From Methanobacteriota archaeon (GTDB taxonomy: Archaea > Thermoplasmatota > Poseidoniia > Poseidoniales > Poseidoniaceae), in contig PBUZ01000003.1 in NCBI GenBank assembly GCA_002728035.1, forward strand, positions 4,255 to 26,120: DNA of 21,866 bases, given 5' to 3'. The notes under the pieces are model-generated. The model had not been told where the DNA came from. It saw only the letters and a list, made by a program, of their open reading frames with translations, and made no database searches. Each line of letters starts with the position of its first letter. Within the stretch, counting starts at the first letter, position 1. A program made the position numbers and the translations under genes. Positions 6,745 through 11,061 of this stretch are shown here, piece by piece.

Positions 6745-7227
6745 ATGCAAGTTCTCATGGAAACCAGCGCAGGCAACATCACCATCGACCTTTTTCACGG
6801 AAGTGCCCCCGATACGGTCGCCAACTTCGTCAAACTCGTCAACCAAGGTCACTACGACGGTCTCCACTTCCACCGCGTGATCGAGGACTTCATGATTCAA
6901 GGCGGATGCCCGCACTCAAAGGACCCCATGTCTCGCCGTGCTGGAACTGGAGGCCCCGGGTGGCAAATCCCTTGCGAACCCTCTGCCCTCGCGCTCAAGC
7001 ACGACAAGCCCGGTGTCCTGTCTATGGCCAACGCTGGCCGAAACACAGGCGGCTCGCAATTCTTCCTGACCACCGTCGCAACCCCATGGCTCAACGGTAA
7101 CCACGCAGTGTTTGGCGCCGTCAGCGAGGGAATGGACGTCGTTCACACCATTGAGCGCTGCAGAAAGCTGCCTGGCGATCGCCCTGCAGAGCCCCAACAA
7201 ATCATTCGCTGCACCGTCATTGAGTGA
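6745..7227 (+). CDS. Peptidyl-prolyl cis-trans isomerase, cyclophilin type
   Basis: A 160-residue single-domain cyclophilin that catalyses proline isomerisation during folding; no signal peptide is seen, so it is probably cytosolic. Diagnostic segments are FHRVIEDFMIQGG (catalytic Arg and Phe/Met/Gln pocket), GVLSMANAGRNTGGSQFF and HAVFGAVSEGMDVV. Length and the compact bacterial PpiB-like loops fit the small prokaryotic class. The frame is open far upstream, but the ATG at 6745 starts MQVLMETSAGNITIDLF exactly where family members begin. The next gene starts 9 bases after the stop, suggesting an operon with the isoaspartyl peptidase. Linking proline isomerisation and isoaspartate removal as protein maintenance is an attractive but unproven reading. 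Confidence 0.95.
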   Translation: MQVLMETSAGNITIDLFHGSAPDTVANFVKLVNQGHYDGLHFHRVIEDFMIQGGCPHSKDPMSRRAGTGGPGWQIPCEPSALALKHDKPGVLSMANAGRNTGGSQFFLTTVATPWLNGNHAVFGAVSEGMDVVHTIERCRKLPGDRPAEPQQIIRCTVIE

Positions 7228-7236
7228 GGTGAATCC

Positions 7237-8184
7237 ATGGTTGTCCTCGCCGTGCACGGTGGTGCAGGCGGTGACGGACCTTGGCGGGGCATGACCGATG
7301 CTGACCCGCAACGTCTGGCCTGCATGCGTGCTCTTCTCAACGACATCGGTGAACGCCTGCACGCTGGCACATTGGACGCATTGGAAGCGGTGACGCTCGC
7401 GGTGGAAGCGATGGAAAACGAGCCGTTGTTCAATGCAGGAAAGGGTTCGGTTTTGGATGCAAGCGGTCAAGTAACCATGGATGCGAGCATCATGTGCGGC
7501 CAAGACCAAGCTGCTGGTTCGGTCATCGGGATTCGTACCTCTCGCCATCCCGTCCGCGTCGCTCGTCGTCTGCTCGATGCTGGATGGCCGGTGATGCTCT
7601 ACGGAGAGGCAGCCGATGCCTACGGCGAGGAACATGGCGTTGAACAGGTTGAGCCCACATGGTTGGTGACCGAACTTCGCTCGGCACAGTGGGCCAAATG
7701 GAAAGAACAACGGTTGCGACCAGGAGCAACCGATGAAGAAGACGCGCTGCTTGACCACGATGGAGAGCAAGACGGGTGGGGCACGGTGGGTGCCGTCGCC
7801 CTCGATGCTTCTGGAAGATTGGCTGCGGCCACCTCCACAGGAGGAATGACAGGGAAGCCTCTGGGGCGTGTGGGCGATACACCCCTCATTGGAGCGGGAA
7901 CATGGGCAGACCAACGCATCGCCGTCTCCTGTACGGGCATTGGCGAGGCGTTCATTCGTACCGCTGCTGCTCACCAAACCGCTGTGCTCCATCGAGAGAT
8001 GAAGATTGAGCAGGCTGCGCTGGCGGTGTTGGATGAAGTGGGGCCCTTTGGCGGACGCGGTGGGATGATCGCTGTGGACCGTGAAGGAAACGTGACGCTT
8101 CCCTTTCAGACCATGTTGATGTATCGCGGTATGTATTGCGACGGTTCTGTTCGGTTGGGTATCGGGCCCGAGTTGATGTATTAA
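7237..8184 (+). CDS. Isoaspartyl peptidase / L-asparaginase (Ntn-hydrolase, plant/IaaA type)
   Basis: A 315-residue precursor of the N-terminal nucleophile asparaginase family, which autocleaves to expose a catalytic threonine and removes isoaspartyl dipeptides or hydrolyses asparagine. The family start VLAVHGGAG is present, followed by FNAGKGSVLDASGQVTMDASIM. The predicted cleavage site is Gly182/Thr183 in the GTVGAVALD motif, with STGGMTGKPLGRVGDTPLIGAGTWAD downstream as the substrate-binding segment. The linker before Thr183 is long and acidic (about residues 160-180), as usual for the processed loop. A GAGGTGA Shine-Dalgarno sequence sits 5 bases before the ATG and overlaps the cyclophilin stop, so translation as a second operon gene is well supported. 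Confidence 0.93.
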   Translation: MVVLAVHGGAGGDGPWRGMTDADPQRLACMRALLNDIGERLHAGTLDALEAVTLAVEAMENEPLFNAGKGSVLDASGQVTMDASIMCGQDQAAGSVIGIRTSRHPVRVARRLLDAGWPVMLYGEAADAYGEEHGVEQVEPTWLVTELRSAQWAKWKEQRLRPGATDEEDALLDHDGEQDGWGTVGAVALDASGRLAAATSTGGMTGKPLGRVGDTPLIGAGTWADQRIAVSCTGIGEAFIRTAAAHQTAVLHREMKIEQAALAVLDEVGPFGGRGGMIAVDREGNVTLPFQTMLMYRGMYCDGSVRLGIGPELMY

Positions 8185-8224
8185 AGCCCCTAAGTTCATG
8201 ACCTGTTGAGCATGCGACAACTCC

Positions 8225-9397
8225 ATGCCTGTGGACGCAGATGAAGCCTTGCGAAGGGCGACATTGGTTCGCAGCGACCCTTCGTTGAGGGGGGTCAGTC
8301 GAGAAAACATCGCCAAAACGGAAGGTGAAGTGCTTTGGAGGTACTTCATGCCAGATGGAGAGCCTGTTGAAGAAGACGAACTCGTCGAGCGATGGAACAG
8401 CATGGGGCTGCCTCCCGCATGGGAGAACGTATGGATTTGCCCCAACCCTCGTGGCCACATCCAAGCCACAGGACGGGATGTGAAAGGGAGGTTGCAATAC
8501 CGCTATCATCCCGACTGGACGGAGATCACCACCGAAATGAAATACGATGATGTGGTCTATTTTGCTTCCCAACTTCCGCGATTGCGTCGCCAAGTTGCCC
8601 GAGACATCGACCAAGGCGACATGAGTCTCAACACCGTTTCAGCCCTCGTGGTCCGTCTGATGGACCTGTACAACATCCGTGTTGGGTCCGATGAATATGC
8701 AAAGGCCAACGAATCCTACGGTTTGACGACCTTGAAGTCCATGCATGTGAAGCACATCAAAGGCGATGATGCTGAAGGTCGTCACGATGCTGTGTTCACC
8801 TTTACGGGTAAATCGGGAAAAGATTGGGACATCACCATTGAGGACGACCATCTCGTTGATTTGATCCTCAAGACCAACCGGCTTGGAGCGAAGGATGCTG
8901 ACCTGTTCATGTACATCTCTGAGGCGGGCAACGAAGTGGATCTCAAAGCCGAACACATCAACCAATACATTCGGGCATCGAGTGGAGAAGGGTTCACGGC
9001 CAAAAACTTCCGAACATGGGCGGCGACCTCGCGTTGCGCAGAACGTTTGGCCTTTTTGTCGATTGAACGGACAGCAGAGGACATGGAAAAGTGGATGGCT
9101 TCTCTTCCCGCCGTGGAGTCGATGGAAAAATTGTGGACGGATGGGGTTTGGGCACCTCCAACCACTGAAACGGGCCGTAACAAAGCCCTGCTTGCCGTGG
9201 TTGATACCGTGGCAGCCAACTTGGGGAACACCCGTGCTGTCTGCCGCTCATCCTACATTCACCCTTGGTTTCTCGATGCATGGATGAACGATGAGTTGGG
9301 GGGTGCATGGGCGGAGTTTGCTGACATGCGCGCCATGGGGAACATGTCCACTGGCGAAAGTACGACGCTTCGGATTCTCAAGAAGTTGCGAAGTTGA
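8225..9397 (+). CDS. DNA topoisomerase IB (bacterial/poxvirus type)
   Basis: A 390-residue type IB topoisomerase that relaxes supercoils through a 3'-phosphotyrosyl intermediate. An N-terminal DNA-clamp region contains LPPAWENVWICPNPRGHIQATGRD and GRLQYRYHPDW. The catalytic core has IRVGSDEYAKANESYGLTTL (Arg152), FTGKSGKDW (Lys196 in the loop), KNFRTWAAT (Arg263) and the nucleophile Tyr344 in AVCRSSYIHPW. At the position usually held by the catalytic histidine the local sequence is LGNTRA, so an Asn may replace His. This small form is known in bacteria and poxviruses and differs from the large eukaryotic or thaumarchaeal enzyme, so it is probably transferred. It begins 40 bases after the peptidase and could be the third gene of that unit. 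A GTTCATGA sequence about 26 bases upstream could instead be a weak promoter. Confidence 0.94.
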   Translation: MPVDADEALRRATLVRSDPSLRGVSRENIAKTEGEVLWRYFMPDGEPVEEDELVERWNSMGLPPAWENVWICPNPRGHIQATGRDVKGRLQYRYHPDWTEITTEMKYDDVVYFASQLPRLRRQVARDIDQGDMSLNTVSALVVRLMDLYNIRVGSDEYAKANESYGLTTLKSMHVKHIKGDDAEGRHDAVFTFTGKSGKDWDITIEDDHLVDLILKTNRLGAKDADLFMYISEAGNEVDLKAEHINQYIRASSGEGFTAKNFRTWAATSRCAERLAFLSIERTAEDMEKWMASLPAVESMEKLWTDGVWAPPTTETGRNKALLAVVDTVAANLGNTRAVCRSSYIHPWFLDAWMNDELGGAWAEFADMRAMGNMSTGESTTLRILKKLRS

Positions 9398-9427: not shown

Positions 9428-9438
9428 TTTATTAATAA
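9428..9438 (+). promoter_or_regulatory. TATA box of the RHH-fumarase gene
   Basis: TTTATTAATAA stands out in an otherwise GC-rich window and is centred about 24-26 bases before the ATG at 9457. No Shine-Dalgarno sequence lies between, so the transcript is probably leaderless. This placement also supports translation from 9457, including the N-terminal DNA-binding domain. Confidence 0.65.
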
Positions 9439-9456
9439 CTAATTATTGGCCGTTGC

Positions 9457-11061
9457 ATGGCCAAACACCGAGCAGGCGACCGTCGCATCATCAGCATCAG
9501 TATTCCAGAAGACCTGGCAAAGAAATTGGACCGGCGCGTCGGCAAAGGACGAGAAGGTGGACGTTCCGCGACGATTGCAAAAATGATCCAGCAAAGCCTC
9601 GATGTGGCTGTTCAGGCCCCTGGGCCTGCTCCAGCACGTGCCCCACGTCGTGCGGATGCTCCTGTAGGTGAGGTACGAATTGAATCCGACACCATGGGCG
9701 AACTCGAAGTCCCCGCCGACCGCTACTACGGCTGTCAGACCGCTCGGTCGTTACTGAATTTTGACATCGGCCACGACACCATGCCGCTGGGTGTGATTCG
9801 AGCTTTTGGCATTCTCAAACAGGCCGCTGCAAAGACCAACGTGGCCCTCAAGCAACTTGACCCCGAGGTGGGCGACCTCATCATCGCCGCCGCCCAAGAC
9901 GTGATTGACGGCCATCTTAACGACCACTTCCCGCTTCGTGTATGGCAAACGGGAAGCGGTACGCAATCCAACATGAACACCAACGAGGTCATCGCCAACC
10001 GTGCCATCGAACTCGCCGGTGGAGTGCTTGGTTCGAAAGCACCCGTTCATCCAAACGACCACGTGAATCGAGCGCAATCGTCCAACGACACCTTTCCAAC
10101 CGCCATGCACATCGCTGCAGCCGAAGCCTTCACGCATCGCTTGCTTCCCAGCGTTCGCGCCCTGCGCGACTCGCTTCACGCCAAAGCCGTTGAGTGGAAC
10201 GACATCGTCAAGATCGGTCGCACGCACTTGATGGACGCCGTTCCCCTGACCCTCGGGCAAGAAGCCTCGGGATGGGTGGCGCAGCTCGATGCCGACCTCC
10301 GTCGCCTGGACTTTGCGCTGGATGACCTGTTTGAACTCGCCTTGGGAGGTACAGCCGTGGGAACGGGCCTCAACGCCCACCCGCTCTTCGCTCAAATGGT
10401 GGCCGATGAAATCGCTAACATCACCGGTCTAACCTTCTGTTCGGCCGAGAACAAGTTTGCACAATTGGCTGCTCACGACGCCATCGTAGCGGCATCCGGT
10501 GCGCTGAACACGCTGGCCGCCTCGCTGATGAAAATCGCCAACGACATTCGCTGGCTCGGTTCAGGACCTCGCTGCGGTTTGGGCGAACTTGCTCTTCCCG
10601 CCAACGAGCCCGGCTCTTCCATCATGCCGGGCAAAGTCAATCCAACACAATCGGAAGCCATGACGATGGTCTGCTGCCAAGTGATGGGGAACCACACCGC
10701 CATCACCGTGGGTGGCAGCCAAGGCAACTTCGAACTCAACGTGTTCAAGCCGTTGATGATTCACAATTTCCTTCATTCTGTTGACCTGCTGACCGACGCC
10801 TGTCGGACCTTCCGAACACGATGTGTTGATGGCTTGGTGGCGGTGGAAGAGAACATCCAATCGCACCTCGAAAATTCACTGATGTTGGTGACGGCCCTGA
10901 ACAACCACATCGGTTACGACAAGGCGGCGAAAATCGCCAAGAACGCCCACGAAAAAGGGTCAACTCTTCGCGAGTCAGCGCTGGAATTGGGCTACCTTAC
11001 GAACGCGGAATTTGATGCATGGGTTCGCCCTGAAGAGATGACGGGGCCAAAGCAAGGCTGA
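9457..11061 (+). CDS. fumC: Class II fumarate hydratase with N-terminal ribbon-helix-helix domain
   Basis: A 534-residue fusion. Residues 1-50 form a ribbon-helix-helix DNA-binding fold: strand RRIISISI (9-16), helix [12 protein letters not shown] (17-28), a Gly/Arg turn, and helix [13 protein letters not shown] (37-49). A Pro/Ala-rich linker (53-70) leads into a complete fumarase C that interconverts fumarate and malate in the TCA cycle. The core begins [20 protein letters not shown] and contains [31 protein letters not shown] and the signature loop [11 protein letters not shown] (386-396, catalytic Ser387/388). Normal FumC is about 460 residues, so the extra 70 are an addition. No plausible separate FumC start exists between the domains, and a TATA box fits the ATG at 9457. 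DNA binding, autoregulation or simple oligomer aid are all possible roles. Confidence 0.93.

Follow-up and report, generated by a model that had tools for sequence, protein, structure and literature searches.

Why should an enzyme of the tricarboxylic acid (TCA) cycle begin with a domain of a DNA-binding type? The question is raised by a 21,866-nucleotide stretch of DNA from an archaeon of the Poseidoniales, or Marine Group II (contig PBUZ01000003.1 of assembly GCA_002728035.1, positions 4,255 to 26,120; the whole stretch is called the window below). A class II fumarase gene with an N-terminal extension, fumC, lies on its forward strand at positions 9457-11061, and an earlier note on the same DNA had recognized a ribbon-helix-helix (RHH) pattern at the start of the protein. 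Among relatives, the domain occurs together with an A/T-only element at the fumC promoter. The interpretation preferred here, with a probability of about 0.7, is that the protein acts as a trigger enzyme with autoregulation of the PutA kind: its RHH dimers would bind an operator over the TATA position of its own gene and repress fumC. The genome of the window (G000) comprises 1.84 Mb in 115 contigs and is 80.5% complete.

A fumarase with a predicted N-terminal RHH domain

The gene is a single open frame of 534 amino acids with an ATG start, and the stop-to-stop frame of 540 codons is just 6 codons longer. The fusion to a full fumarase proposed in the earlier note is borne out in this one frame. 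Residues 73-529 match TIGR00979 (fumC_II) with 758.5 bits against a curated cut-off of 664.75, covering positions 1-457 of the 458 in the profile, and the best PDB relative, 6n1m (654 bits), aligns with residues 71-533. The segment SSIMPGKVN, which we take to be a class II fumarase signature, is present. Pfam finds Lyase_1, FumaraseC_C and a weak RHH_1 in the full protein, and no further domain. The fumarase part thus covers residues 72-534 plus the stop codon (9670..11061, forward strand). Class II fumarases are generally tetrameric. Judged by its sequence, the frame encodes a full-length class II fumarase, and activity and a tetrameric state are expected from its family.

The predicted RHH domain comprises residues 1-50 (9457..9606, forward strand), with a basic N-terminal arm at about 1-8, a strand at about 9-16 (9481-9504, by sequence pattern), helix A at 18-28 (9508-9540) and helix B at 36-50 (9562-9606). 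It is joined to the fumarase by a linker, residues 51-71 (9607..9669), that is variable in sequence and partly predicted to be disordered (pLDDT below 50 for residues 51-60). The predicted protein is therefore an RHH-type domain, a loose linker and a complete class II fumarase. The limits of 9-49 first given for the RHH pattern fit the Pfam matches and the predicted helices. Matches to RHH_1 (PF01402) do exist for the first 50 residues, as the earlier note expected, and are weak for the window's own protein: residues 1-73 reach 17.8 bits (E 0.0033) and the full-length protein 14.2 bits (E 0.043), its scores overall being 14.2-18.7 against the curated cut-off of 20.5. Among 27 aligned extensions, the window's included, 26 match RHH_1 at E up to 0.1, with a best E of 2.7e-5. 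Six extensions were also scanned one at a time: two exceed the cut-off at 21.3 bits, three lie at 18.0-20.1, and that of genome G028, which is divergent, has no match. Three fragment proteins related to the extension (P0127, P0128, P0130) are named ribbon-helix-helix by NCBI.

The full-length AlphaFold2 model shows both helices (18-28 and 36-50), along with short strands at 4-6 and 9-11, and its linker is disordered; modelled alone, the domain has both helices but lacks a strand. The domain is modelled with low confidence in either case (10-residue mean pLDDT 46-75). RHH domains are obligate dimers, and a single-chain model is for this reason expected to be poor. A PDB profile search with the domain gave nothing significant, the matches being ribonuclease PH (E 0.27) and NikR (E 0.77, aligned with 2bj1 residues 6-40). 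The sole Foldseek matches of the low-confidence domain model are RHH (ParD) antitoxins, not significant, and VIA-align gave nothing informative on the same model.

The domain is well conserved. In the best-scoring 120 of 847 proteins plus the window, a set taken without a motif filter that leans to close relatives, residues R9, R10, I11, S15, P17, E18, L24, D25 and G31 are invariant (121/121), R36 and S37 occur in 120 each and S13 in 118. Position 12 varies (I 52, M 42, V 17, L 10); at position 16, I occurs in 111 and L in 10. The strand of an RHH protein turns every second residue towards the DNA groove and the remaining ones towards the core. Here the residues presumed to face the DNA (R9, I11, S13, S15) are better conserved than the other set, as is the R-S pair that opens helix B. 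The ratio of non-synonymous to synonymous substitution rates (dN/dS) comes to 0.041 over residues 1-50 and 0.036 over the fumarase, against 0.263 over the linker (columns 51-70). These values are estimated from 15 close pairs among 76 coding sequences; some sequences recur in several pairs, which are therefore not independent. The pattern used to recognize the extension in this set fixed R10, I11 and S15 and restricted positions 13 and 14, so that conservation there is partly built in. By these values the extension is a genuine, translated and constrained part of the protein. Purifying selection on it speaks for its translation and against a start downstream of residue 50, and a mis-called start as the source of the extension is ruled out by the value of 0.041 within the domain.

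A promoter element that follows the domain

The putative operator, TTTATTAATAACTAATTATT, lies at 9428..9447 on the forward strand. It consists of A and T only, holds inverted repeats that overlap one another (TTATTAATAA; AATAA-N4-TTATT) and occupies the TATA position of what is presumably a leaderless promoter. In the earlier note a TATA box was placed some 20 bases ahead of the gene; an A/T element is indeed there, but it starts 29 bp upstream of the ATG, is partly palindromic and is longer than a TATA box.

Extension-bearing genes of relatives are preceded by a similar block, A/T-only or nearly so. It takes the form TTTATTAATAAC(T/C)AATTA in the window and many members of the second of the two families of the order, and TTATTTAATAATTAATTATTAA, with a perfect 18-bp palindrome, in one clade of genus code g5. 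Part of g1, the genus code of the window, has the shorter TTTATTAAA(C/T)GCC, and g6, where the domain has diverged as well, has TTTAATAAC. In 75 of 80 genes the distance from the start of the core to the ATG is 27-31 bp; in the others it is 25 (two), 42 (two) and 53 bp (one).

Counted over the loci, the core was found at 80 of 81 domain-bearing fumarase genes and at none of 48 domain-less ones, the patterns (TTATTAA, TTATTTAATAA or TTTAATAA, within 60 bp of the start) having been written after the upstream sequences were viewed. The sole exception among the domain-bearing genes, L228, has the near variant TTATAATTAATAACTAAATAAT. The 159 loci selected for this count included two that could not be parsed (L078, L255); 25 of the remaining 157 were duplicates by script, and three whose sequence was cut or masked (L256, L263, L264) were excluded. 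This co-occurrence makes autoregulation, which the earlier note had raised as a possibility, the likely role of the domain.

The element is also close to unique in the genomes searched, all of which are incomplete. When up to 3 mismatches are allowed, the 20-mer has a single match in G000, as does a reversed control. The word TTTATTAA occurs once in 289 kb of this genome, at fumC, and in one of 152 upstream regions, which rules out an ordinary genome-wide TATA word. Across 25 genomes of g5, a 22-bp site stands at fumC in all 13 with the domain and nowhere in the 12 without it, with one off-fumC match (G050). Thirty-two further genomes of the order repeat the pattern, the site being at fumC in 23/23 with the domain and nowhere in 9/9 without, with three off-fumC matches (G215, G221, G248). 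Reversed patterns gave up to 2 matches per genome in the g5 set and up to 6 in the second, so single off-target matches mean little. Four g5 genomes (G037, G052, G063, G093) carry a second copy of the site 46-47 bp further upstream, and such copies fit a multi-site operator rather than a TATA box. Taken together, these searches mark the element as near-exclusive to domain-bearing fumC.

Independent changes of the domain were counted on an unrooted IQ-TREE phylogeny of 129 fumarases. The domain state changes 8 times, and well-supported branches require 4 of these changes. The best tree offers eight independent pairs; in the four that lie on supported branches and were scored, the element follows the domain in 3.9 of 4. 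It is never opposite to the domain, and the resulting p of 0.125 is the floor for four pairs.

Proposed autoregulation and its rivals

In the autoregulatory model, the flexible linker of about 20 residues on each fumarase polypeptide would allow the RHH domains to pair, and the four units of a tetramer would form two dimers. These dimers may seat on the overlapping A/T-only inverted repeats at the fumC TATA position. Since the operator lies over that position, the bound RHH-fumarase would exclude TBP and TFB, and fumC would be repressed. The near-unique site, with few copies elsewhere, implies one target, so the regulon would be essentially fumC and the circuit a single-target negative autoregulation. 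Four points of the model are inferences: that the protein binds DNA, that it represses fumC and does not activate it, that dimers pair inside one tetramer, and that substrate might modulate the process. A metabolite-gated form of the model, akin to the earlier note's suggestion of an enzyme that reports fumarate/malate state to DNA, is tentative and rather doubtful. In it, the distance between the two RHH dimers would depend on how the tetramer is occupied or assembled, so that fumarate and malate levels would directly set fumC repression in a widespread group of ocean archaea. Ligand-independent copy-number control is equally compatible with the data.

The strongest alternative, though an unlikely one, is that the element is an unusually strong TATA box, that the RHH domain does its work at other sites, for example at other promoters or as a nucleoid-type DNA binder tethering fumarase to DNA, and that domain-less genes are read from the promoter of an upstream gene. 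Several observations weigh on its side. The element stands where the TATA box of a leaderless archaeal gene is expected, and a weak A+T peak at -28 to -24 across 152 upstream regions of G000 (with mechanical start calls) hints at leaderless promoters in this genome. The gene upstream of fumC, which encodes DNA topoisomerase IB (8225..9397, forward strand; PF01028/PF21338), identifies this locus in relatives whether or not their fumC carries the domain. It ends 270-673 bp short of the fumarase core in 12 domain-bearing loci (L003-L014) and 50-58 bp short of it in 10 domain-less ones (L025-L028, L193, L250-L254). The joint absence of domain and element in all ten speaks for autoregulation. The gaps there are so short, however, that co-transcription of domain-less fumC with the topoisomerase gene is plausible, and the whole promoter may have been lost. 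These short gaps slightly lower the confidence in autoregulation and raise that in the TATA-box alternative. That alternative is difficult to reconcile with a word essentially unique to fumC in G000, with only four off-fumC matches in 36 other domain-bearing genomes, with a repeat that exceeds the length of a TATA box in many members, and with the second copies 46-47 bp upstream in four genomes. Nor does it explain why the type of promoter should follow the domain.

It is improbable that the RHH-fumarase is an activator, binding beside the core promoter and recruiting TBP and TFB. Genes without domain and element have other upstream sequences, so either sign of regulation could be accommodated, but the element covers the TATA position itself. 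Archaeal regulators that bind over this position usually repress. PutA, the closest parallel, is likewise a repressor (PMC5293562). Least probable is an RHH domain that serves as a protein-protein module without DNA binding, for extra dimerization or, in the manner of an antitoxin, for binding a partner. RHH domains do dimerize proteins: the one from E. coli conferred the oligomeric state of E. coli PutA on a PutA lacking the domain (PMC5293562). The Foldseek matches, not significant, are ParD antitoxins. But such a module does not predict a domain that tracks a promoter element, and conservation is among the highest at the R-S pair and at the strand residues presumed to face the DNA.

Relation to known systems

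The autoregulatory reading finds its precedent in bacteria. The earlier note knew of no described system of this kind, but trifunctional PutA is one: it joins an RHH domain to a metabolic enzyme and represses the gene that encodes it (PMC5293562). According to PMC8249747, the PutA of E. coli binds only the spacer between putA and putP. The window protein resembles the trifunctional (type C) PutA of enteric bacteria in its N-terminal RHH domain, its catabolic enzyme and its role as an autogenous repressor, which here is a predicted one. PutA is a bacterial flavoenzyme that dimerizes through its RHH domain, controls the transporter gene putP as well and moves to the membrane with proline. The window protein, in contrast, is an archaeal fumarase of the TCA cycle and would presumably be tetrameric even if it lacked the RHH domain; its putative site is A/T-only, and its own gene is apparently the sole target. 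The proline dehydrogenase and P5C dehydrogenase domains of the PutA family are absent from its Pfam result.

Compared with ordinary FumC, the protein has a 71-residue extension with a domain of DNA-binding type; none of the best 60 of 84 PDB matches aligns before residue 48. It shares with RHH_1/CopG regulators (NikR, ParD, CopG) the predicted strand-helix-helix pattern, the S-I-S-I-P strand and R-S at helix B. Unlike them it is fused to an enzyme, and strong matches to its subfamily occur only in Poseidoniales among the genomes searched. BirA, NadR and PepA have different folds and different modes of DNA binding. They are trigger enzymes, that is, enzymes that also regulate transcription (PMC8249747), and the window protein would resemble them as an enzyme with a transcriptional role. 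As a kind, the RHH-bearing trigger enzyme is already known through PutA. What appears to be new in the open-access papers searched is the enzyme (a fumarase), the domain of life (archaea) and the A/T-only operator at its own promoter. Open-access searches found no RHH-fumarase fusion nor, among the papers listed, an archaeal fumarase with a DNA-binding domain, and the papers listed on Marine Group II fumarate hydratase and on Poseidoniales transcription factors yielded no such fusion.

If the autoregulatory reading is correct, this is an archaeal trigger enzyme that works within the core TCA cycle. Its domain and its DNA site, which appear and vanish together, would form a ready-made natural experiment. 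To our knowledge, Marine Group II archaea are uncultured. An enzyme with its operator, self-contained and testable as purified protein with a short DNA, would be a rare way into their gene regulation. The case also suggests that a regulator can arise by the addition of about 50 residues to a housekeeping enzyme.

Distribution and history of the domain

The earlier note had asked for the same architecture across Marine Group II genomes, and there it is widespread: the domain profile matches 183 of 318 Poseidoniales genomes, in 16 of 22 genera and in both families, a figure that includes one weak match without a fumarase match (G226, E 5.6e-4). A sample of 389 genomes of the phylum gave 82 matches, 78 of them inside the order. 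The four outside it (G346, G359, G381, G388) are weak (E 5.7e-5 to 6.5e-4) and were judged by frame length, the frame in G388 having 743 residues.

Of 80 loci kept out of 525 relatives, 46 have the extension and 34 lack it. The extension-less fumarase genes that were read begin at or shortly before RIExDTMG. Among the loci read they belong to part of g1, part of g5, one of two g10, g3 (except G028), g7, g8, g9, g11 and g14. The expectation that close relatives keep the extension thus holds only in part. L025-L028, which share the genus code of the window and are 92% identical to its fumarase over residues 70-530 or 531, lack the extension, although the promoter element is missing there too. 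Its occurrence in both families suggests that the domain is old and was lost more than once, gain and loss being inseparable on an unrooted tree.

A few cases stand apart. The fumarase of G028 (L180, g3) has a very different, strand-helix-helix-like N-terminus without a Pfam match, in a genus code whose other fumC genes read have none; its promoter carries the window-like element TTTATTAATAATGAATAATAG. Its N-terminus may reflect extreme divergence or a second acquisition. In a FastTree phylogeny the domain-less fumarases of L250-L254 (g14, second family) group with that of G130 (g8, first family) at 96, and a transfer of fumC between families is possible. Two assemblies hold two different fumC copies each, one of them g5-like: G148 (L097, L195) and G160 (L193, L194). 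Bin contamination or transfer is possibly the cause.

Standalone kin of the domain were sought among short proteins of 0.55-1.75 times the query length. None was found among 12 of the 94 that match the profile, which lie mostly on short contigs; all 12 carry the same extension. P0128, P0178 and P0188 continue into the start of a fumarase. P0180, on a 938-base contig, continues into the sequence of another enzyme and is probably a chimaera. A second, unfused domain in G145 is only apparent, as a contig end cuts it off.

Gene neighbourhood and other upstream elements

In the window, genes for a Cyclophilin, an Asparaginase_2 and topoisomerase IB precede fumC (6745-9397), and at least one of the three also precedes it in the relatives displayed. 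By this measure the fumC neighbourhood is old but shortened in some relatives.

Domain-less fumC genes have upstream sequences of other types. A distinct conserved element, CGTRCGAACKGTGAAGAAGT, lies at about -40 to -20 from the ATG in most of L029-L043, L048-L051, L055, L058-L060, L065 and L071. In seven g5 genomes it stands at fumC in 7/7, with five other copies at 3 mismatches, while reversed controls give up to 4 matches per genome. Another regulator, having taken over from autoregulation, may bind there. A third type, the hairpin-like and conserved TCTTCTCTCGTAGAGAGAAGC, is found at about -55 to -35 in L045, L053, L054, L056 and L057. In L181, L182 and L184 (g3, g7), GAGGGAAAGGGACATGGAC is conserved about 45-25 bp ahead of the ATG.
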